NCBI GenBank assembly: GCA_017303995.1
Contig: JAFLBE010000001.1
Location: forward strand, 124,001 to 188,000
Length of the DNA: 64,000 bases
From: Bacteroidota bacterium
GTDB lineage: Bacteria > Bacteroidota > JABWAT01
Direction: 5' to 3'
Shown here: positions 6,254 to 57,783 of the stretch, piece by piece
Layout of the letters: the number at the start of each line of letters is the position of its first letter
Position numbering within the stretch: position 1 is the stretch's first letter
Notes under the pieces: generated by a model
Seen by the model: the letters and a program-made list of their open reading frames with translations, nothing else
Databases searched by the model: none
What the model was told of the DNA's origin: nothing
Program-made: the position numbers and the translations under genes

Positions 6254-7378
6254 ATGAAAATTGCCTATCTTTCAACGTTTTTTCCTTTCCGTGGCGGCAT
6301 TGCCCAGTTCAATGCTTCACTTTACCGTGAACTTGAAAAAACGAATGAGATTCAGGCTTTTACCTTCACCCGTCAGTATCCCGATTTGCTCTTTCCCGGG
6401 CAGACTCAATTTGTGACAGATCAGGATGCCGTTGACCGGATTCCGGCAATCCGTTCACTGGATACAATCAATCCCGTTTCCTGGGAAAAAACAGCTAAAA
6501 TAATTCGAAACCAACAGCCTGATTTGCTGCTGATGAAATTCTGGATGCCGTTTTTTGCTCCGTCACTTGGGTACGTTTCTGGTAAAGTGAGAAAAGGAAA
6601 AACCAAATCCATTGCAATTTTGGATAATGTGATTCCCCACGAAAAACGACCGGGTGATCTGGCTTTGATCAGGTATTACCTGAATCGTGTTGACGGATTT
6701 ATTGCCATGAGCAAGTCAGTAGAATACGATTTGCTTTCACTTAAACCCGATGCAAACTTCCGGTTGAAAGCACATCCGGTTTATGATCATTTTCCAGTTT
6801 CTGTTGATCAGGAAACTGCCAGAAAAGCCCTGAACCTTCCAGAAAACAAAATCATACTCCTCTTTTTTGGATTCATCAGAGATTACAAAGGGCTCGATCT
6901 TTTAATTGAAGCCATGCCAAAACTTGATGACCGTTTTCACCTGGTTATTGCTGGAGAAGTTTACGGTAACTTTGATAAATATCAGGAAAGAATTGATAAA
7001 CTTGGGTTGAATGACCGGGTTTCAGTATTCACACGTTACATCAGTGACCCTGAAGTGGCTCAGTTTTTTTCTGCAGCAGATTTAGGTGTTTTGCCCTATA
7101 AAACGGCAACTCAAAGCGGAATTGTACAAATTGCGTATCATTATGATCTGCCGGTTCTCGTAACAGACGTTGGCGGGTTAACAGAAATGGTGACCGACGG
7201 AAAAACCGGGGTTGTTATTCCTTCACCAGATTCTCAACTGATAGCAAATGGTATTCTTGCAGCATTTCAGGAGAATAAAAATCTGGATTTATTCAGAAAT
7301 GAAATCCGGTTGAAAAAACCCGAAATGTCGTGGTCAGGATTTGCCGGAACGGTGTTGGATTTGGCGAAGGAGATTTGA
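6254..7378 (+). CDS. Glycosyltransferase family 4
   Basis: A 374-residue GT-B enzyme. The N-terminal acceptor domain starts MKIAYLSTFFPFRGGIAQFN, with the glycine-rich loop typical of GT4. The C-terminal domain has LLFFGFIRDYKGLDLLIEA, LVIAGEVYG and the nucleotide-sugar motif PYKTATQSGIVQIAYHYDLP, where the usual E-x7-E pattern is only partly kept. It ends with VTDVGGLTEMV. It follows the GT9 gene by 6 bp and probably adds another sugar to the same surface polysaccharide. The stop codon lies inside the first unit of a heptanucleotide tandem repeat. Confidence 0.85.
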   Translation: MKIAYLSTFFPFRGGIAQFNASLYRELEKTNEIQAFTFTRQYPDLLFPGQTQFVTDQDAVDRIPAIRSLDTINPVSWEKTAKIIRNQQPDLLLMKFWMPFFAPSLGYVSGKVRKGKTKSIAILDNVIPHEKRPGDLALIRYYLNRVDGFIAMSKSVEYDLLSLKPDANFRLKAHPVYDHFPVSVDQETARKALNLPENKIILLFFGFIRDYKGLDLLIEAMPKLDDRFHLVIAGEVYGNFDKYQERIDKLGLNDRVSVFTRYISDPEVAQFFSAADLGVLPYKTATQSGIVQIAYHYDLPVLVTDVGGLTEMVTDGKTGVVIPSPDSQLIANGILAAFQENKNLDLFRNEIRLKKPEMSWSGFAGTVLDLAKEI

Positions 7379-7432
7379 ATTGCGAATTGCGAATTGCGAA
7401 TTGCGAATTGCGAATTGCGAATTGCGAATTGC
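7377..7432. repeat. Heptanucleotide tandem repeat, 8 x gaattgc
   Basis: Eight perfect copies of gaattgc (56 bp) begin at the stop codon of the GT4 gene and fill most of the space before the convergent PstS-like gene. The repeat cannot change either protein. A second eight-copy 7-mer array is at 38831-38886, also between convergent genes. Confidence 0.95.
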
Positions 7433-7472
7433 GATTATTACCTTATAAAGACGAATTTATTTTCGTCACCCG

Positions 7473-8309
7473 TCACCACAATGAAATAAATCCTGCTTCC
7501 TGAACAATTTTTTGTCCGGCAGGGCTTTGAACCCAATTGATGAACGGTTCTGTTGGATCTTTTGGCGTATCAACCACATAAAAGAAGAGATACCTGGTAA
7601 TCGGATACCGGTCATTTTTAACATTTTCCTCGGTGGGTTCAATTCCGTTTATGTTCAGGTTTCTGACTCCCTGCATGTGTGAAATCCCACCATATCCGAT
7701 ACCATTTACTGTTTTGCTGATTACAGTTGCCAATGCCTGACTTGTCGGAACAATCAGGGTTCCGGTTGCCTGAGATTCGTTAAACAGGATATGTTCTTTA
7801 AAATATAAGTACGTCCCTGAGTTTGGCGGGCGCACAAAAACTTCTACCGGGGAATCATTTCCTCCAACTTCTTTCCAGTTGAGAATCTCTCCTAAAAACA
7901 ATCCTCTCACCTGTTCAGTTGTCAATGATTTAACGGGATTTAACGGGTGAACATAAATGCTTAGTGCATCCTTTGCAACCATGTATGAAAGTCCGACACT
8001 ATTGTACTTTCCTGCAATGATTTTAACTTCTTCTGGCTTTAAAGGTCTTGAAGCCGCACAAATCTCTGCCTGTCCCTCAGTAATAGCTTTTACTCCGGTT
8101 GTGGTTCCGCCGCCTAATACGTGAACAGAAATATCTGGATGAAGTTGCATATATTCTGCAGCCAATTTCTGGGTGACCGGCATCAACGTTTCAGAACCCA
8201 TGATCCTGAGATATTTGGGGTTCGAACTTTTCACGGTCGATTGTGGCTGACTGCATCCGGTCAGGAACGAAATTAAAATCAGAAGAAAATAAAAATAGAG
8301 TGATTTCAT
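7473..8309 (-). CDS. PstS-like phosphate-binding lipoprotein
   Basis: From MKSLYFYFLLILISFLTGC the product is 278 residues, with a lipobox (LTGC) near residue 19, so it should be a lipoprotein. The mature part follows the PstS fold: RIMGSETLMPVTQKLAAEY, GGGTTTGVKAITEGQAEIC, AASRPLKPEE, PPNSGTYLYFKE and GIGYGGIS. These residues shape the phosphate-binding cleft. A longer frame to 8366 would read back into the M28 gene; the ATG at 8309 gives the lipoprotein signal and the usual 4-bp ATGA overlap. No pstC, pstA or pstB lies nearby, so transport partners must be elsewhere or the protein has another role. Confidence 0.85.
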   Translation of the reverse strand: MKSLYFYFLLILISFLTGCSQPQSTVKSSNPKYLRIMGSETLMPVTQKLAAEYMQLHPDISVHVLGGGTTTGVKAITEGQAEICAASRPLKPEEVKIIAGKYNSVGLSYMVAKDALSIYVHPLNPVKSLTTEQVRGLFLGEILNWKEVGGNDSPVEVFVRPPNSGTYLYFKEHILFNESQATGTLIVPTSQALATVISKTVNGIGYGGISHMQGVRNLNINGIEPTEENVKNDRYPITRYLFFYVVDTPKDPTEPFINWVQSPAGQKIVQEAGFISLW

Positions 8310-9940
8310 CGTTTCTCTGCAATAGTTTGTAACCGGATATTCCGGTAGGATGCCTGACTGTTCCACTCGATATCACCTTCGTAATCAGCAGTTTCCTTGA
8401 TCATTTTATAAATTAAGTTGGAATGCTGAAGAACGGCCTGCCAGTTAACCGGTTGGCTTAGATCATCAAAAGGGGAATGATAAATGGTTTGATCCCAGCT
8501 GAATTTGATTTGTTCTGCCTCTGCCTCGTTTAGATTTAAATAATGGGTTCCTTCAAAAAGAGATAGTGACGGAATTCCTGCACTGGCAAAAGCAAAATGA
8601 TCAGAACGGTAAAAAGATTCAGTGCCGATTTGTGACGCTGGAGTACCGCTTAATTCCAATTTCATATTTTCGAGTACCTTTTCCAGAATCTGGCCAAGAT
8701 CAGAAAGTTCACTTCCAACTCCAATAACATCACTAAATTCATCAAAAGCTGAAATCCCGTCAATATTGATGTTTGCCGTCGTCTTATAAAGCGGGAAAAC
8801 TGGATGGATGGTATGATACTGTGAACCAAGCAATCCCTTTTCCTCTCCGGTTGTCAGGATAAAGATAATAGTTCGTTTTGGTTTATTTTCGGGAAGATTT
8901 AAAATCCGTGCCATTTCCAGAGTAACAGCAACACCCATCGCATTGTCGAAAACTCCATTGTAGATAGAATCACCCATAACTTTGGGCCCGATTCCGAGGT
9001 GGTCATAATGAGCAGAAACCAAAACTGCCTGTTCTGAAAGCACTGGGTCACTTCCCTCAATTTTCCCGATCACATTTGCTGCCATAAAATCACGTTGTTT
9101 GAATTCCCCCGAAAAGGAAAGCCGGGTAAGCAGTTGAAAACTTCTGACTGCATTGTATTTATCCATTTCAAGCACATCCTGAAACGTAAATCCTGAACCC
9201 GAAAAAAGATCATGTGCCTGTTTAGGATTTAATAACAAACTAAGATTACCTGCTGGTGCAAAGGCCTGTGTAACTGTTTCAAACGAAAATTCTTTAACCC
9301 AATAGGACCAGGCCCTGTATTGATCATCCGGATTTGGAATCAGGATACAACCCGTTGCACCAAGAGCAATAGCCTGCCTTTGTTTGGCTTCTGCTGAACT
9401 GTAAACGGTTGGTAATTTTCCGTTAAACCATGAGGGATCATCTGACCGGGGTTCACCGTTTAGAATCACCACTATTTTTCCTGAGACATCAATATCCTGA
9501 TAATCATTATAGTCAAATTGGGGTGCATTTATTCCATACCCGGCAAAAACCATTTGGACGGGTTTTGGAATAAAAGTTTGTGCCCCGGTTTTGTATAATA
9601 AGTAATCCTGTCCCAAAATTAATATGCGGTTTTCATCAGGAAGTTCAAGAATTAATCTCGAATTAGGTAACGGTTTACTTCCATGGAGGGGAATGTTCTG
9701 AAACCACGAACCTTCGTCCCCGGCGGGTTCAATTCCAGCTAAATTAAATTGGGCTGCAAGATAATTTGCTGCTTTTACCCCACCAAGAGTTCCGGTTCCT
9801 CTTCCCTGTAAAGAATCATGTCCCAGAACTGCAATCAGGTTTTGAATTCTGCCAGTATCGGGTTCGACGATTGAAAACTGCAAGGCAAAAGCCGGCAAAT
9901 AGCAAAAAAGAAACAGATGGATTGAACAAATTACTTTCAT
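8306..9940 (-). CDS. Secreted M28-family zinc aminopeptidase with PA domain
   Basis: This 544-residue exported peptidase has a signal peptide (MKVICSIHLFLFCYLPAFAL). A PA-domain-like insert covers about residues 125-260. The M28 core has metal and catalytic motifs VSAHYDHLG, GVFDNAMGVA, ILTTGEEKGLLGS, INIDGIS and SDHFAFASAGIPS. M28 enzymes of this form release N-terminal amino acids in the periplasm or outside the cell. It is translationally coupled to the PstS-like gene downstream. The 100-bp divergent spacer holds the promoter of the rightward gene at 10041; the leftward promoter was not recognised. Confidence 0.88.
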   Translation of the reverse strand: MKVICSIHLFLFCYLPAFALQFSIVEPDTGRIQNLIAVLGHDSLQGRGTGTLGGVKAANYLAAQFNLAGIEPAGDEGSWFQNIPLHGSKPLPNSRLILELPDENRILILGQDYLLYKTGAQTFIPKPVQMVFAGYGINAPQFDYNDYQDIDVSGKIVVILNGEPRSDDPSWFNGKLPTVYSSAEAKQRQAIALGATGCILIPNPDDQYRAWSYWVKEFSFETVTQAFAPAGNLSLLLNPKQAHDLFSGSGFTFQDVLEMDKYNAVRSFQLLTRLSFSGEFKQRDFMAANVIGKIEGSDPVLSEQAVLVSAHYDHLGIGPKVMGDSIYNGVFDNAMGVAVTLEMARILNLPENKPKRTIIFILTTGEEKGLLGSQYHTIHPVFPLYKTTANINIDGISAFDEFSDVIGVGSELSDLGQILEKVLENMKLELSGTPASQIGTESFYRSDHFAFASAGIPSLSLFEGTHYLNLNEAEAEQIKFSWDQTIYHSPFDDLSQPVNWQAVLQHSNLIYKMIKETADYEGDIEWNSQASYRNIRLQTIAEKR

Positions 9941-31274: not shown

Positions 31275-31973
31275 ATGAAAGTCTGGCTTCGTTTTTTATT
31301 GATTGGTATTTCCCTATTTCAAATTGGGAATGCCTACGCTCAACTTCAGGTTACTTTTTCAGCCGACACAACCCAAATCTGGGAAAAAAATGTAGGGCAA
31401 AGTTGTGCTGCTATGTTTACAAGTCTGGTTGAAACCCGAAATGATACGGTTTTTGTAACAGAGGTTGATACAGCCTTATTTCATGCAACCTGCTGGTGTT
31501 ATTATACCTTGCGTACAGACATTGTTGGTTTACTTCCAGGTGAATATATTGCCAGTGTTTCAAGAAAGAATAACAAACACGAATTGCCAGAATTTATCGG
31601 AACAATACCTTTTACTGTAACGTATGGTTCTGTTCAGAATTTAAGTGTGAAAGGAACCCAAAGCCGTTGCTATAGTTCCCCGCAAAGTGTTCATTATGGA
31701 GCATTGCCTTCTTCACCTTATCTTTTGAGCAATTACCCAAATCCGTTCAATCCGGTTACGCTCATTTCTTATACAGTTCCGGTTTCCGGCAACTTAAAAA
31801 TTGAAGTCTATGATGTTCAGGGTATTAAAGTGGCAACTGTGGTAGATCGTTTTGTATCTGCCGGCGACTATGAGGTTCCTTTTGATGCATTTGGATTAAG
31901 CAGTGGAATATATCTGCTCAGGATGACGAATTCTGAGACTTCTCTGGTTAATAAAATAACATTTCTGAAGTAA
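31275..31973 (+). CDS. Small T9SS-exported protein of unknown function
   Basis: This 232-residue protein has a signal peptide (MKVWLRFLLIGISLFQIGNA then YAQ). About 120 residues of an unrecognised beta-rich domain follow, with four cysteines (QSC, a CWC pair and SRC) that could form two disulfides. The C-terminus is a complete type A sorting domain: NYPNPFNPVTLISYTVPVSG, LKIEVYDVQG and SGIYLLRMTNSE. It should be secreted or attached to the cell surface. It is followed by its own terminator, so it is a single-gene unit. Confidence 0.82.
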   Translation: MKVWLRFLLIGISLFQIGNAYAQLQVTFSADTTQIWEKNVGQSCAAMFTSLVETRNDTVFVTEVDTALFHATCWCYYTLRTDIVGLLPGEYIASVSRKNNKHELPEFIGTIPFTVTYGSVQNLSVKGTQSRCYSSPQSVHYGALPSSPYLLSNYPNPFNPVTLISYTVPVSGNLKIEVYDVQGIKVATVVDRFVSAGDYEVPFDAFGLSSGIYLLRMTNSETSLVNKITFLK

Positions 31974-49187: not shown

Positions 49188-49270
49188 GTCGAGCGGGGCA
49201 AAGATCCCGTCCAAGGTTCGGTTACGAACCGCGGATCCGGCGAAACTTGGAAACGCTTTCGGGATGGTTG
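49188..49270. repeat. Dispersed intergenic repeat module upstream of the tRNA locus
   Basis: It starts cgtcgagcggggcaaagatc and contains a ggttcggttacgaacc palindrome, then acgctttcgggatggttg. The acgctttcgggatgg piece is shared with the tRNA-like units that start about 150 bp later. Confidence 0.6.
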
Positions 49271-49281
49271 ACGGGATCGTT

Positions 49282-49311: not shown

Positions 49312-49389
49312 ATGATGTTCGAAGCCGGATATCATGTGTATCAAACCAGGTGAGCCGGTAAAGTTTAAGATTAAAATAAAAACCAACCT

Positions 49390-49447
49390 GCCGGGGTGGT
49401 GAAATTGGTAGACGCGTCCCGAACGCTTTCGGGATGGGTGAATAACC
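49390..49447 (+). pseudogene. tRNA-Leu-like fragment 1 (swapped anticodon arm)
   Basis: The sequence up to gacgcg is identical to tRNA-Leu. A 7-bp stem tcccgaa / ttcggga with a cgct loop then stands where ctggactcaaaatccag should be. The variable arm ends at ...aataacc, followed by agataaaccgg instead of the T arm. It cannot form a mature tRNA. Confidence 0.85.
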
Positions 49448-49487
49448 AGATAAACCGGTAAAAGTTTAAGATAGAATTAGCCAACCT

Positions 49488-49545
49488 GCCGGGGTGGTGA
49501 AATTGGTAGACGCGTCCCGAACGCTTTCGGGATGGGTGAATAACC
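49488..49545 (+). pseudogene. tRNA-Leu-like fragment 2 (swapped anticodon arm)
   Basis: Same structure as fragment 1, continuing into aggtgaaccgg after the variable arm. No T arm or 3' acceptor strand. Confidence 0.85.
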
Positions 49546-49585
49546 AGGTGAACCGGTAAAAGTATAAGATTGAATTAGCCAACCT

Positions 49586-49643
49586 GCCGGGGTGGTGAAA
49601 TTGGTAGACGCGTCCCGAACGCTTTCGGGATGGGTGAATAACC
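49586..49643 (+). pseudogene. tRNA-Leu-like fragment 3 (swapped anticodon arm)
   Basis: Same structure again, continuing into aggtgagccgg, the leader of the genuine tRNA-Leu gene. Confidence 0.85.
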
Positions 49644-49685
49644 AGGTGAGCCGGTAAAGTTTAAGATTAAAATAAAAACCAACCT

Positions 49686-49770
49686 GCCGGGGTGGTGAAA
49701 TTGGTAGACGCGCTGGACTCAAAATCCAGTGGGTGAATAACCCGTGTCGGTTCGATTCCGACCCTCGGTA
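49686..49770 (+). tRNA. tRNA-Leu (anticodon CAA)
   Basis: An 85-base class II tRNA. The acceptor stem is gccgggg with cctcggt, with G-U pairs at the end and one inside. The D arm follows; the anticodon stem is ctgga / tccag with loop ctcaaaa, giving anticodon CAA for UUG codons. The long variable arm is gggt-gaata-accc, and the T arm is gtcgg-ttcgatt-ccgac. Discriminator A is at 49770; CCA is not encoded. A terminator follows directly. Confidence 0.95.
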
Positions 49771-49774
49771 CAAC

Positions 49775-49804
49775 AAAAAAACCCGTTTTCGACGGGTTTT
49801 TTTG
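49775..49804 (+). terminator. Rho-independent terminator after tRNA-Leu
   Basis: A-rich flank, stem acccgt / acgggt with a tttcg loop, then seven T residues. Mirror-like flanks may let it also stop the convergent AspT-like gene. Confidence 0.9.
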
Positions 49805-49834
49805 TTTAGTAGAATTCTACTTTTCACTGGTATG

Positions 49835-52182: not shown

Positions 52183-53994
52183 ATGAAGAAAGCGATATTG
52201 TTTTCTGTAATAAGTATAGTTGCTGCCGGCGCATACGCAGGTAATAACAATCAAAAAGCTGTTACAAAACTGGACAAAGGAGAAGCATCAGGAACGGTGT
52301 CATCCCCTGCCCGGGCAAAAGTTAACGAATCGGTTCTGATCGGAAATTCAGCCAATGCATACGCATGGCAGGCTTCTGGAACGAATCAAATCTATTACGA
52401 TGTAGCGAGCAACACACTTGCTGTAACCAAACGTCGTGGATCACTTGACACCGCTATACCATCCGGTTCAGGTCGTATTGTAAACCACATGTCTACAGAT
52501 GCCGGTGCAACCTGGTCTGCAGGTCTTGAAGTTAACGGTACACTTGCCCCTCAGGTGTTTGGCCGTCACCCGAATGTTGCCATTCTGCCAAGCGGTGAAC
52601 TGATTACCCAATGGGCTGAACTGTATCCAATGGGCGCAGGATTTAGTGCAATTGGTGTTACCGCCAATAAACTGTCAGACAACAGCCTTCTTTCTGCTTA
52701 TATCGACACATTAATCATCACTGAAATTGACGATGTTGCTGGTCTTGATACAGTTACATATAGCGTTCCTGATGAAATTTTTGTTGATGAAGCGAACGGA
52801 ACCTTCTATTTTGGTGGCGCTGCTGATAATGCAACCAACACCAACTATCTGTGGAAATCATCTGACAAAGGTGCTTCTCATCAATTGGTAAAATTGTGGA
52901 AAGATGCTGCATACGGCGGAGTTATTGCCGGAGCCAATCCAACCCACGGTGATTTTACCGGTTCAAAGGGTAACTACATCATGAGCGTTCTGCCTGACTC
53001 TGCCTATGCAGTAGCCAATGGTCTTGATTATGAAACCTATGCTCCTTATTTGGTTCGTTTCGAAAACGGATCGATTACAGAAGAAGGTTTTGTTGATCTT
53101 GGTGCCATTTTTACTACACTTGGTATCGACAGCTGGACTTATGAGTGGGATATGGTTACTGATAAAGACGGTAACTGGCACATGTTTATCCAGGGATATT
53201 TGGCTGGAGAGACCGAAGATACCAATGTTGGTATTTACGAAATCTATTCCAACACCCCTGGTCGTACTGATATCGGTGCAATGAAAGTTGCAGATATTAC
53301 GCTGGTAGGCCGTGTGATCGATGCTGCTAATACTTTGAACGGAACCGCAGATATCCATGCATCCCGTGATGCTGAAGGCAAGTATGTATTTGTGAAATAT
53401 CTTGACTGGGATCCAACCGATGATCCTGAAACTTCAACAGAAATGTTTGTTTCAGGTCGTGCTATTTCCAGCGAAACCTATGCTGACCCGATTGCTGTAA
53501 ATGATAACGACTTTGCCAATCAGAATTTCACCCAATCAGCACCCCGTGTGTCTGCTTTAGGTGCTGGTGATGCTGCCGGTACCATGAAATTCCAAATCCA
53601 CTCTTCATGGGTTGAATTTGGTGGAACACCTGCTGCCGGTACTGCTGCTGCTAACCTTTTTTATGTCGGACCTACTCTTGATGTTGCTGAGTATTCTACA
53701 GGTACCGGCATTGAAGAAAACTTCAGAGCCGATCAGTTTGAATTGTTAGGTAACTACCCAAATCCGTTTAATCCTTCTACAAATCTCAGATTTACAACCC
53801 CGCAGGCTGGTAATCTAACATTTGAAGTATTTAATGTTTTGGGTCAGAAGGTTACTTCTTTTACTTTTATGGCAACCCGTTCGGGACTTCATGAAGCAGC
53901 ATTTGATGCCAAAAACCTGGCATCCGGATCCTATGTTATCCGTATGTCAGCAGCTGGCTTTACCCGTTCCATGAATGTGCTTTTAGCTAAGTAA
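52183..53994 (+). CDS. T9SS-exported Asp-box (BNR-like) surface protein, short twin
   Basis: A 603-residue protein with a signal peptide (MKKAILFSVISIVAAGAYAG) and a strong ggaggag ribosome-binding site. The 500-residue body looks like a sialidase-type beta-propeller: Asp-box HMSTDAGATWSAG at about residue 107 and a second, weaker LWKSSDKGASHQLVKLW. The active-site arginines of sialidases are not evident, so binding is as likely as catalysis. The C-terminus is a type A sorting domain (NYPNPFNPSTNLRF ... SGSYVIRMSA). Residues from about 13 to 460 are encoded by DNA that appears identical to the next gene. It has its own terminator. Confidence 0.82.
   Translation: MKKAILFSVISIVAAGAYAGNNNQKAVTKLDKGEASGTVSSPARAKVNESVLIGNSANAYAWQASGTNQIYYDVASNTLAVTKRRGSLDTAIPSGSGRIVNHMSTDAGATWSAGLEVNGTLAPQVFGRHPNVAILPSGELITQWAELYPMGAGFSAIGVTANKLSDNSLLSAYIDTLIITEIDDVAGLDTVTYSVPDEIFVDEANGTFYFGGAADNATNTNYLWKSSDKGASHQLVKLWKDAAYGGVIAGANPTHGDFTGSKGNYIMSVLPDSAYAVANGLDYETYAPYLVRFENGSITEEGFVDLGAIFTTLGIDSWTYEWDMVTDKDGNWHMFIQGYLAGETEDTNVGIYEIYSNTPGRTDIGAMKVADITLVGRVIDAANTLNGTADIHASRDAEGKYVFVKYLDWDPTDDPETSTEMFVSGRAISSETYADPIAVNDNDFANQNFTQSAPRVSALGAGDAAGTMKFQIHSSWVEFGGTPAAGTAAANLFYVGPTLDVAEYSTGTGIEENFRADQFELLGNYPNPFNPSTNLRFTTPQAGNLTFEVFNVLGQKVTSFTFMATRSGLHEAAFDAKNLASGSYVIRMSAAGFTRSMNVLLAK
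52219..53695 (+). repeat. Duplicated segment, copy 1
   Basis: From inside the signal peptide to the end of the propeller this DNA repeats at 54322-55798 (offset 2103). I see no difference over 52219-53562. At least four substitutions then fall within about 110 bp, and the copies diverge at 53692. The alternative-frame translations of large parts also match, which supports nucleotide identity. Confidence 0.92.
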
Positions 53995-54071: not shown

Positions 54072-54285
54072 TTGAACCCGAAGCAGAATAGAAATTTCAT
54101 TCATAAACAAGTTCCGGTTAGTGGTTGGTTTGGAAGAATAAAAGGGAAGCGCTTTTTTTCTGCCCTATTTTTTCCTCGAGGCAGATATTGATTTTGAAAA
54201 AGGAGTTGCTTATCATTATCGAAAGCAGTGTACTCCCCTGCTTTTATTTAACCAACACAACACACTCATGACTAGGAGGAAGTTT

Positions 54286-57200
54286 ATGAAAAAAACTTTA
54301 TTGCTTGGAACAGCTCTGCTTGTTGCTGCCGGCGCATACGCAGGTAATAACAATCAAAAAGCTGTTACAAAACTGGACAAAGGAGAAGCATCAGGAACGG
54401 TGTCATCCCCTGCCCGGGCAAAAGTTAACGAATCGGTTCTGATCGGAAATTCAGCCAATGCATACGCATGGCAGGCTTCTGGAACGAATCAAATCTATTA
54501 CGATGTAGCGAGCAACACACTTGCTGTAACCAAACGTCGTGGATCACTTGACACCGCTATACCATCCGGTTCAGGTCGTATTGTAAACCACATGTCTACA
54601 GATGCCGGTGCAACCTGGTCTGCAGGTCTTGAAGTTAACGGTACACTTGCCCCTCAGGTGTTTGGCCGTCACCCGAATGTTGCCATTCTGCCAAGCGGTG
54701 AACTGATTACCCAATGGGCTGAACTGTATCCAATGGGCGCAGGATTTAGTGCAATTGGTGTTACCGCCAATAAACTGTCAGACAACAGCCTTCTTTCTGC
54801 TTATATCGACACATTAATCATCACTGAAATTGACGATGTTGCTGGTCTTGATACAGTTACATATAGCGTTCCTGATGAAATTTTTGTTGATGAAGCGAAC
54901 GGAACCTTCTATTTTGGTGGCGCTGCTGATAATGCAACCAACACCAACTATCTGTGGAAATCATCTGACAAAGGTGCTTCTCATCAATTGGTAAAATTGT
55001 GGAAAGATGCTGCATACGGCGGAGTTATTGCCGGAGCCAATCCAACCCACGGTGATTTTACCGGTTCAAAGGGTAACTACATCATGAGCGTTCTGCCTGA
55101 CTCTGCCTATGCAGTAGCCAATGGTCTTGATTATGAAACCTATGCTCCTTATTTGGTTCGTTTCGAAAACGGATCGATTACAGAAGAAGGTTTTGTTGAT
55201 CTTGGTGCCATTTTTACTACACTTGGTATCGACAGCTGGACTTATGAGTGGGATATGGTTACTGATAAAGACGGTAACTGGCACATGTTTATCCAGGGAT
55301 ATTTGGCTGGAGAGACCGAAGATACCAATGTTGGTATTTACGAAATCTATTCCAACACCCCTGGTCGTACTGATATCGGTGCAATGAAAGTTGCAGATAT
55401 TACGCTGGTAGGCCGTGTGATCGATGCTGCTAATACTTTGAACGGAACCGCAGATATCCATGCATCCCGTGATGCTGAAGGCAAGTATGTATTTGTGAAA
55501 TATCTTGACTGGGATCCAACCGATGATCCTGAAACTTCAACAGAAATGTTTGTTTCAGGTCGTGCTATTTCCAGCGAAACCTATGCTGACCCGATTGCTG
55601 TAAATGATAACGACTTTGCCAATCAGAATTTCACCCAATCAGCACCCCGTGTGTCTGCTTTAGGTTCTGGTGATGCTGCCGGTACCATGAAATTCCAAAT
55701 CCACTCTTCATGGGTTGAATTTGGTGGAACACCTGCTGCTGGTACTGCTGCTGCAAACCTTTATTATGTCGGACCTACTCTTGATGTTGCTGAATATGCC
55801 GGCGGTGCTGCTGAAGCTAAGCTGACCTTCATCGTCAACACAGCATTTGTTCAGGATACCCTTTCTGCTAACCATACTGTATCTTTCCGTGGAACTGCCT
55901 TTGGTGGTGACTGGTCATATGATAATGGTGTTAAGTTCACCAATATCGGTGGTGACTATTGGAAAGCAGAAAAAGTATGGCCAGTTGGAAACACTGGTGG
56001 TATTTTCAAGATCGTTACCTCTTCACCTTCAGGTACAGGCTGGGATCGTCATGAGTATGGCGTTCAACCAGTAACTGGTGATGATACCTTCATGTTTTAT
56101 ACAACTGGTTTAACCAATGTATATACTGATCCTGTTACCGGCGCAGAAATTACCCGCGGCGATGATTGGGATCCGCTTGAAATTGCAAAAGAAGGAACAA
56201 CCGGTAAAGTTGCTGTTCACTTCCGTGTTAACATGCACCCTCGTCCTAGCTTTAATCCAGCTCAGCACGAAGTACAGGTTCGTGGCAGTTTCAATGATTG
56301 GGGCGGTAACACCAAACTATATCCTGAAGTACGTTATGACGATATGGATGCAACTACCAGATATGATGCACCTAAATACTTTTTCAGCAGAACCGTTCTG
56401 ATTGATGAAGCCAGCATTGGTAGTGAGCTGAAATACAAGTTCACTTACACTGATCCTGCAACTCAATGGGAATCCGTTCCTGACCGTCCTTTCACACTGA
56501 ATGGTGATACCACCTTAGCATGGAAAACATGGGACAATCTGATAATTGATCCAAAAATCACTGGTGATGGAAAAATTGTTATCACCTATTCTGTTGATCT
56601 TGCAAAAGCCATTAATACCAATGGATTTGACAAATCAAAAGATACCCTTTACGTAAAAGCTGGTCTTGGAAATACTGCTGTTTCAGTTGTTGAAACCAAA
56701 CTTGCTGCTCCGCTTTTGGGTAATGTTTTCTCGGGAACATCTGACTCAGTAGATGTTATCGATCAAGCACAGATGTTCTACGGCTTTTTCAAGCGCAATG
56801 ACAAAGGTGAATTTGAAGAATTCTATTTTGATAACTTCGATTCAAGCGGTAAAGCTAACGGACCTAAATTCCGTAAACTTTATGTTGATGGCGTTGGAAA
56901 AACATATGCTACCGAAGATAAAATCAAAGATGGAGTTTCTACTCACCGTCAGCCGTTCTTCAAAAATACCAATCCAGTTGGTGCTGATGTAACCCTTACG
57001 CTTGAAGCCAACCTTATGCCAGCTATCCACTTCACAAAAGCATTGGGTCAGTCTCTTGAAGATATCCAAAACGGACCTGTTGTTGTTACTGCTGCAAATA
57101 TCGATGACTATGCCTTGTACGTAAATGGTCCTGCTACCAGCTCTGCCGGTAACTGGGCACCATGGAACGACATTGACATGGGCGATACACGCAAAATGAA

Positions 57201-57783
57201 TGACAGTGGTTTAAATGGTGATGCTGCTGCCGGAGACAATATCTGGACAGTTCAATTTACCTATACTCCAACTTCTGGTATCAGCCAGGAATTCAAATTG
57301 GGTATCAAAGGCGCTGATAACGAAGCTGGCTTTGGTAACAACCACATGTATAACCTGATTGCCGGTGGAACTAACATTTACCGCGTTCAATTTGGTGATA
57401 TCCAACCTAGCCGTTTCATGCTTGATGCCAATAATTATTGGGATTTTGCTTACATGGATGGCTTAGGTGCCGGAGTTAAAGATGGCAAATATGTTAGTGT
57501 GAACGATAATGTTGCAAAAGCAAATACATTTGCTCTTCTGCAAAACTATCCTAACCCTTTCAACCCAGCTACCTCTATTCGGTTTACCGTTGTTGCTGAC
57601 TCTAAAGTTGACTTCACGGTTTACAATACACTTGGTCAGACCATTTCCACTTTTGTAGTTAATGCAAAAGCTGGTTATAATGTTGTACCTTTCTCTGCTG
57701 AGAAACTTGCATCAGGTACTTACCTTGTTAAAATGACTTCTGGTTCCAACACGAAGACCATTAAAATGGTATTCATGAAGTAA
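54286..57783 (+). CDS. T9SS-exported Asp-box surface protein with added glycan-binding-like domains, long twin
   Basis: From MKKTLLLGTALLVAAGAYAG the product is 1165 residues; aggagg before 54286 decides this start over 54268. Residues about 14-500 match the preceding protein almost perfectly (A to S and F to Y changes at the end). The next 570 residues are unique. They include KLTFIVNTAFVQDTLSANHT, then VAVHFRVNMHPRPSFNPAQH with HEVQVRGSFNDWGGNTKLYP, a pattern like CBM20/48 or SusE-type starch-binding domains, and further Ig-like repeats. It ends with NYPNPFNPATSIRFTVVADS ... SGTYLVKMTSGS, a type A sorting domain. Its position upstream of a MalEFG-like importer suggests surface capture of alpha-glucan. 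Confidence 0.82.
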   Translation: MKKTLLLGTALLVAAGAYAGNNNQKAVTKLDKGEASGTVSSPARAKVNESVLIGNSANAYAWQASGTNQIYYDVASNTLAVTKRRGSLDTAIPSGSGRIVNHMSTDAGATWSAGLEVNGTLAPQVFGRHPNVAILPSGELITQWAELYPMGAGFSAIGVTANKLSDNSLLSAYIDTLIITEIDDVAGLDTVTYSVPDEIFVDEANGTFYFGGAADNATNTNYLWKSSDKGASHQLVKLWKDAAYGGVIAGANPTHGDFTGSKGNYIMSVLPDSAYAVANGLDYETYAPYLVRFENGSITEEGFVDLGAIFTTLGIDSWTYEWDMVTDKDGNWHMFIQGYLAGETEDTNVGIYEIYSNTPGRTDIGAMKVADITLVGRVIDAANTLNGTADIHASRDAEGKYVFVKYLDWDPTDDPETSTEMFVSGRAISSETYADPIAVNDNDFANQNFTQSAPRVSALGSGDAAGTMKFQIHSSWVEFGGTPAAGTAAANLYYVGPTLDVAEYAGGAAEAKLTFIVNTAFVQDTLSANHTVSFRGTAFGGDWSYDNGVKFTNIGGDYWKAEKVWPVGNTGGIFKIVTSSPSGTGWDRHEYGVQPVTGDDTFMFYTTGLTNVYTDPVTGAEITRGDDWDPLEIAKEGTTGKVAVHFRVNMHPRPSFNPAQHEVQVRGSFNDWGGNTKLYPEVRYDDMDATTRYDAPKYFFSRTVLIDEASIGSELKYKFTYTDPATQWESVPDRPFTLNGDTTLAWKTWDNLIIDPKITGDGKIVITYSVDLAKAINTNGFDKSKDTLYVKAGLGNTAVSVVETKLAAPLLGNVFSGTSDSVDVIDQAQMFYGFFKRNDKGEFEEFYFDNFDSSGKANGPKFRKLYVDGVGKTYATEDKIKDGVSTHRQPFFKNTNPVGADVTLTLEANLMPAIHFTKALGQSLEDIQNGPVVVTAANIDDYALYVNGPATSSAGNWAPWNDIDMGDTRKMNDSGLNGDAAAGDNIWTVQFTYTPTSGISQEFKLGIKGADNEAGFGNNHMYNLIAGGTNIYRVQFGDIQPSRFMLDANNYWDFAYMDGLGAGVKDGKYVSVNDNVAKANTFALLQNYPNPFNPATSIRFTVVADSKVDFTVYNTLGQTISTFVVNAKAGYNVVPFSAEKLASGTYLVKMTSGSNTKTIKMVFMK
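54322..55798 (+). repeat. Duplicated segment, copy 2
   Basis: Partner of 52219-53695. The first 36 bases of the two genes differ, then identity begins abruptly at gttgctgccgg. The tract up to 55665 appears unbroken, with differences beginning at 55666. Confidence 0.92.

Follow-up and report, generated by a model that had tools for sequence, protein, structure and literature searches.

What could place, directly before a bacterial tRNA gene, a row of incomplete copies of that gene in each of which one arm has been exchanged for a palindrome? The question is raised by a locus in the window, the 64-kb stretch of Bacteroidota DNA analyzed here, where three direct repeats (49383-49676) lie upstream of an intact tRNA-Leu(CAA). 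The reading we favor, with a probability of roughly 0.6, is that a selfish element, based on a small tRNA-specific GIY-YIG endonuclease similar in function to the phage enzyme SegB, left the array behind as an ORF-less relic.

Structure of the array in the window

The units are 98 nt long, start at 49383, 49481 and 49579, and follow each other with a period of exactly 98 nt in the repeat search. Their parts and the adjoining features are listed here.

49344..49389, + strand: leader copy before unit 1, within a 73-nt stretch with 100% identity to that before the real tRNA
49390..49416, + strand: unit 1, tRNA-Leu positions 1-27 (acceptor 5' strand, D arm), identical to 49686-49712
49417..49434, + strand: unit 1, palindrome replacing the anticodon arm, exact match to TCCCGAACGCTTTCGGGA
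49435..49447, + strand: unit 1, remnant of the variable arm (TGGGTGAATAACC), followed by leader up to 49487 (direct repeat)
49488..49514, + strand: unit 2, tRNA-Leu positions 1-27 (repeat comparison)
49515..49532, + strand: unit 2, palindrome (palindrome search)
49533..49545, + strand: unit 2, remnant of the variable arm, followed by leader up to 49585 (direct repeat)
49586..49612, + strand: unit 3, tRNA-Leu positions 1-27 (repeat comparison)
49613..49630, + strand: unit 3, palindrome (palindrome search)
49631..49643, + strand: unit 3, remnant of the variable arm, which meets the real tRNA's leader at AACC (direct repeat)
49644..49685, + strand: leader of the real tRNA (sequence and repeat search)
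49686..49771, + strand: intact tRNA-Leu(CAA), sole tRNA in the window (ARAGORN and Rfam)
49772..49806, + strand: inverted repeat with 15-nt arms and a T run, probable terminator of tRNA-Leu

All units are composed, in this order, of leader, tRNA positions 1-27 without any change, the palindrome TCCCGAACGCTTTCGGGA, and the tRNA from position 45 onward to the AACC of the variable arm, after which the next leader follows. The anticodon arm that was lost comprises 17 nt (tRNA positions 28-44, CTGGACTCAAAATCCAG) and its place is taken by the 18-nt palindrome, which folds into a hairpin in each of the three units, while the T arm and the 3' acceptor strand are missing throughout. Identity to unit 1 in the repeat search was 96% for unit 2 and 88% for unit 3, with four mismatches in 98 positions between units 1 and 2 and 12 between unit 3 and either of the other two. 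The stretch preceding the first palindrome (leader and tRNA 5' end, 49344-49416) is 100% identical to 49640-49712 at the real tRNA. Units are joined at AACC, a microhomology common to the variable arm (AATAACCC) and the leader (AAACCAGG).

A first-pass annotation of this DNA had described a tandem repeat derived from the tRNA, in which one arm was exactly exchanged for a palindrome and the product then amplified, with T arm and 3' acceptor strand absent; the 98-nt repeats, their coordinates and the match to the tRNA bear this out for all units. Some of its details needed correction: the arm was exchanged as described but measures 17 rather than 18 nt, the replacement is a palindrome but the additional t counted with it belongs to the tRNA's own position 45, the 18-nt palindrome alone having been inserted, and the junction shared by the repeats is refined in its exact letters to AACC.

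ARAGORN and the Rfam covariance model RF00005 (53.2 bits) both detected the tRNA-Leu(CAA) and called no other tRNA in the window; the covariance-model search proposed in the first-pass annotation therefore returned the intact gene and none of the units, and no Rfam family matched the units at the gathering threshold. Allowing up to three mismatches, the palindrome had eight strand matches in the window versus 0.02 expected. No GIY-YIG gene or remnant was found by tblastn in the 64-kb window, so the array itself is not classed as a homing endonuclease element.

Two further features of the window were observed. Positions 49252-49271 (AACGCTTTCGGGATGGTTGA) match, at 95% identity, the segment of the units that runs from palindrome to variable arm and are possibly an older, decayed unit farther upstream. 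The ORFs at 52183-53994 (603 aa) and 54268-57783 (1171 aa) are nearly identical over several hundred N-terminal residues but differ toward the C terminus, as would be expected if one ORF had recently been duplicated and a domain gained.

Comparison with sister species

The array locus is orthologous in the window's genome (G000) and in two sister species of the same genus, G001 and G002, with three, two and one units, respectively. The single unit in G002 (L035, JAIUNL010000036.1) carries TCCCGAACACATTCGGGA and has lost the acceptor strand, and the two units in G001 (L036, JAKLJL010000007.1) carry TCCCGATTCAATCGGGA, the outer one being mutated. Even though the sequence of the palindrome differs among the three species, its self-complementarity is kept. 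G003, a member of the same family, has no upstream unit; downstream of its tRNA-Leu, it has a palindrome joined to the 3' end of the tRNA. No GIY-YIG gene was present at the tRNA-Leu(CAA) of the sister species. Since the same locus is occupied in both sister species, by one unit and by two of which the outer is mutated, the array most likely predates the split of the genus, varies in number and decays in its outer units.

An assembly artefact, about which the first-pass annotation had been concerned, is ruled out by the recovery of the array at this locus in two independently assembled sister-species genomes, as the proposed search of related genomes had sought; equivalents also occur in genomes that consist of a single contig (L273 in G028; L129 on a 1.74-Mb contig). 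In a short-read draft, the unit number could still be inexact.

The constancy of tRNA positions 1-27, the hairpin folding in every unit and the palindromes that remain self-complementary in three species despite differing sequences would all suit a selected RNA, in which a transcribed leader, D arm, hairpin and variable arm serve as decoy, processing site or regulator of tRNA-Leu. We consider this improbable: copy numbers of three, one and two in sister species, the absence of an upstream unit in G003, the lost acceptor strand of the only G002 unit and the mutated outer unit of G001 argue against it, as does the occurrence of similar copies downstream of tRNAs, in all arms and isotypes. The decoy or RNase site that the first-pass annotation had suggested is not supported, in view of the same copy number variation and the same damaged G002 unit, and the wider pattern, which is invisible from the window, points to DNA-level events tied to tRNA-associated GIY-YIG genes.

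Association of small GIY-YIG genes with tRNA genes

We analyzed 100 small GIY-YIG genes with flanks of about 5 kb from a 60-genome sample of the phylum, using 20 UvrC-type GIY-YIG genes as control; the statistics come from this one phylum, with mostly draft genomes. A tRNA gene was located within 500 bp of 43 of the 100 small GIY-YIG genes, in every case on the same strand, and of none of the 20 controls. The density of tRNA genes was 0.57 per kb within 500 bp, compared to 0.00-0.02 per kb beyond 1 kb. The window's genome itself contains four such tRNA-linked genes (Ala, Ser, Ser and Asp).

A second, partial tRNA copy was present within 1.2 kb at 38 of the 43 tRNA-linked loci, usually across the nuclease gene, and in most of these 38 a hairpin replaced or interrupted an arm or loop of the partial tRNA. 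Only one of the 43 loci contained another intact tRNA of this kind. The junction inserts (52, from 34 loci) had a hairpin stem of at least five in 46 cases, and 39 surpassed their own shuffles at p<0.05. Among the 14 junctions that had lost at least 13 nt of the anticodon region, to which three loci contribute two entries each, eight fit the arm exactly at both ends and 12 did so within 2 nt. Other scarred copies had lost CGAGTTCG of the T arm or carried the hairpin inside a loop (T, D, variable or anticodon).

This recurrence bears on two simpler accounts of the window array. Plain tandem duplication by slippage or unequal exchange, following one chance insertion of a palindrome and involving no tRNA-specific enzyme, agrees with the exact 98-nt period, the AACC microhomology and the lack of a nuclease gene at the window locus. 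It leaves unexplained why arm exchange recurs beside tRNA genes together with GIY-YIG genes in many families, and we regard it as unlikely, if the least so of the alternatives. The AACC junction, having four letters, cannot alone separate break repair from slippage. tRNA-targeting integrases leave direct repeats of tRNA fragments next to a tRNA gene that is itself intact, an arrangement also seen here. That the units are remnants of site-specific integration by a phage or island integrase is nevertheless highly improbable, since integrase repeats copy a tRNA end and not a tRNA with a replaced arm, and since the recurrent neighbor in the related loci is a GIY-YIG protein of 80-100 aa.

Phylogeny of the tRNA-linked nucleases

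These proteins match PF01541, and the Y and G of the GIY-YIG motif as well as an R and an E are invariant in 45 proteins of the tRNA clade; the related loci, as opposed to the window, encode the GIY-YIG domain with conserved catalytic residues. Their closest solved relatives are UPF0213 proteins, and phage relatives are few and unannotated. In a tree of 99 proteins, which was built on few columns and is unsure in its deep forks, one well-supported branch separates 40 tRNA-linked proteins among 48 on one side from two among 51 on the other, and the tRNA-link label required eight changes versus 32 in shuffles. Of the eight unlinked members of the tRNA clade, L214, L244 and L279 lie near contig edges and L261 and L281 in tRNA-Met arrays. 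The tRNA isotype was likewise clustered on the tree (22 changes versus a shuffle mean of 30.7, 0/300), also after thinning to one protein per genus and isotype (22 versus 28.6, 0/300). The tRNA-linked nucleases constitute a single clade, within which relatedness goes with tRNA isotype also between different bacterial families.

The type of arm replaced was not clustered by nuclease clade (39/300 shuffles, not significant). A determination of arm type by nuclease clade was accordingly rejected, and the choice of arm may not be set by the enzyme.

Scarred tRNA copies in other lineages

A DNA pattern of tRNA D arm plus palindrome, searched in genome contigs, was found at 61 loci, about 24 of which were judged by eye to be true partial tRNAs, mostly beside or near real tRNA genes; most of the remainder look like coding sequence. 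The partial tRNAs belong to Bacteroidota, Calditrichia, Ignavibacteriae and Armatimonadetes. In Calditrichia, the units measure 79 bp, and as many as four of them immediately precede tRNA-Leu(CAA). A small GIY-YIG ORF is located between a scarred 5' copy and the real tRNA-Leu at L079, L082 and L133, and between the real tRNA-Leu and a scarred 3' copy (ORF identified by eye) at L087, L118 and L084. At L129, four ORF-less upstream units come first, then the real tRNA-Leu(UAA) and a tandem pair of GIY-YIG genes; behind each gene of the pair is a copy whose anticodon and T arms have both been exchanged. In at least seven loci, L129 among them, a tRNA with a GIY-YIG gene downstream also has ORF-less units upstream; two or more such units are present at L225, L273 and L282, and one at L249, L227 and L300.

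Within the window's genus, ORF-less arrays are located 3' of tRNA-Gly(GCC) in both G000 and G001, and 3' of tRNA-Gly(CCC) in G001; a similar array is present in G000. At tRNA-Ala(GGC), a nuclease is accompanied by one scarred copy in G000 and by two in G002, and G001 has a bare tRNA in inverted orientation; this presence and absence between sister species demonstrates no more than gain or loss. The G001 locus (L370, C2, ~31609-31692) lacks the GIY-YIG element, and its tRNA-Ala(GGC) is inverted relative to the flanks when compared with G000 and G002. A separate observation concerns L261 (G052:C34, ~6991-9748), in which eight tandem GIY-YIG genes about 364 bp apart are each followed by a hairpin-scarred tRNA-Met-like copy.

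The palindrome as a dispersed element

Outside the array, the palindrome is dispersed over about 70 sites at up to two mismatches in the 4.3 Mb of the window's genome, compared to none for the reversed control. The copies that were read were mostly intergenic-looking and situated inside or between other hairpins, including a terminator-like loop (aacgccg[..]cggcgtt), dispersed CCCCTCC..GGAGGGG repeats and CACTCAGGGTGAC repeats. With its many places away from tRNAs, the palindrome may come from a source of its own. Within 400 bp of small GIY-YIG genes (two groups), TCC..GGA hairpin modules reached 1.5 and 0.75 per kb, versus about 0.1 outside, and they were absent near UvrC-type genes. Small GIY-YIG genes away from tRNAs (L140, L143, L153 and similar) are surrounded by dispersed repeats, for example TCATCCTGAGTG[hairpin]CGAAGGATGA, and hairpin modules are enriched there too.

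REP sequences and their RAYTs likewise pair short, dispersed palindromes with a small protein of nuclease type, and the hairpins might be REP-like palindromes moved by RAYTs (Y1_Tnp) that settled in duplicated tRNA copies because single-copy tRNAs would not tolerate them, with the GIY-YIG genes as bystanders. The numbers of Y1_Tnp genes (seven in G000, six in G002, one in G001 and none in G003) do track those of TCCCGA palindromes (108, 78, 14 and 14). RAYTs differ in being Y1 tyrosine transposases, and not one of eight Y1_Tnp loci had a TCCCGA..TCGGGA palindrome within about 1.5 kb, the flanking position characteristic of REP/RAYT systems. G003 has scarred tRNA-Asn copies in spite of lacking a Y1_Tnp gene, and the hairpin modules are enriched near GIY-YIG genes instead. 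This origin is therefore doubtful, on a par with the selected RNA. Mobilization of the palindrome by RAYTs was not supported, though it may still account for the dispersed copies, the Y1 genes bearing other hairpins: RAYT-like Y1_Tnp genes of the genus (L360, L361, L362 and L363) are flanked by hairpin repeats of their own (CGACCC..GGGTCG, CCGCTCC..GGAGCGG).

Origin of the array and relation to known systems

According to the favored reading, a relic of a tRNA-homing GIY-YIG element, the small nuclease would cut the tRNA gene, and repair of the break via short homologies, here AACC from variable arm to leader, would duplicate the leader and the 5' part of the tRNA. Copies in which the recognized arm had been exchanged for a palindrome would persist, as we propose, because they escape cutting and make no competing tRNA, one intact tRNA gene always being kept. 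Repeated rounds or unequal exchange would then build the tandem array. In the genus of the window, the nuclease gene may have been lost from the tRNA-Leu(CAA) locus, or may have acted from elsewhere in the genome, with the scarred 5' copies staying behind. The lack of a GIY-YIG gene or remnant, both in the window and at the tRNA-Leu(CAA) of the sister species, is a point against this reading, as are the lack of clustering of the exchanged arm by nuclease clade and the many palindromes away from tRNAs.

A broader proposal, which we put forward tentatively and at less than even odds, is that small UPF0213-type GIY-YIG nucleases drive a hitherto undescribed form of hairpin exchange, whereby short palindromic modules, mostly with a T at the start and an A at the end, replace or invade DNA hairpins (tRNA arms, terminator or repeat loops) and, next to tRNA genes, give rise to isotype-specific selfish elements as well as disarmed tRNA arrays.

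Partial resemblance to other elements is evident. The rtT repeat of E. coli tyrT is also a tandem repeat holding part of a tRNA, but its units keep only a tRNA 3' end and are not known to show arm exchange. Rickettsia palindromic elements (RPE) are likewise palindromes inserted into genes, but have a greater length and no known connection with tRNA arms or GIY-YIG genes.

The closest system is SegB, a free-standing GIY-YIG homing endonuclease of T-even phages that is encoded beside tRNA genes of many isotypes (PMC13096335). It cuts inside tRNA genes and drives tandem amplification, for which microhomology of tRNA ends has been proposed at the junction (PMC13096335). The small GIY-YIG genes share the co-localization with tRNA genes (43/100 versus 0/20 controls); no GIY-YIG gene is encoded in the 64-kb window that holds the array. 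SegB differs in being phage-encoded and not chromosomal, the tRNAs it amplifies are intact, and no hairpin arm exchange has been reported for it (PMC13096335); the bacterial tRNA-linked proteins are shorter and UPF0213-like. Read on the other strand, the published SegB motif RAWTSGAAC (PMC13096335) corresponds, by our own comparison, to the T-loop sequence. In the literature searched, with mostly open-access coverage, we found no description of hairpin-exchanged tRNA copies, the work on phage SegB being the only close one, and could not find an earlier description of such a selfish element in bacterial chromosomes; the first-pass statement that the array matches no known element holds to this extent.

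If the favored reading is true, bacterial tRNA genes host tiny selfish nucleases of a widespread class, whose traces are precise hairpin scars, and the tRNA amplification recently shown for phage SegB extends to bacterial chromosomes. It would offer a testable function for many small GIY-YIG genes without a known role, with a readout in which tRNA arm is exchanged, for which isotype and by which nuclease. Unrecognized pseudo-tRNAs also confuse annotation, as some nuclease ORFs enter the tRNA copy and end in residues encoded there (LVDASR). At L087, L118, L084 and L133, the last GIY-YIG codons are, by eye, read from the scarred tRNA-Leu D arm and palindrome, ending in ELVDASR or similar.
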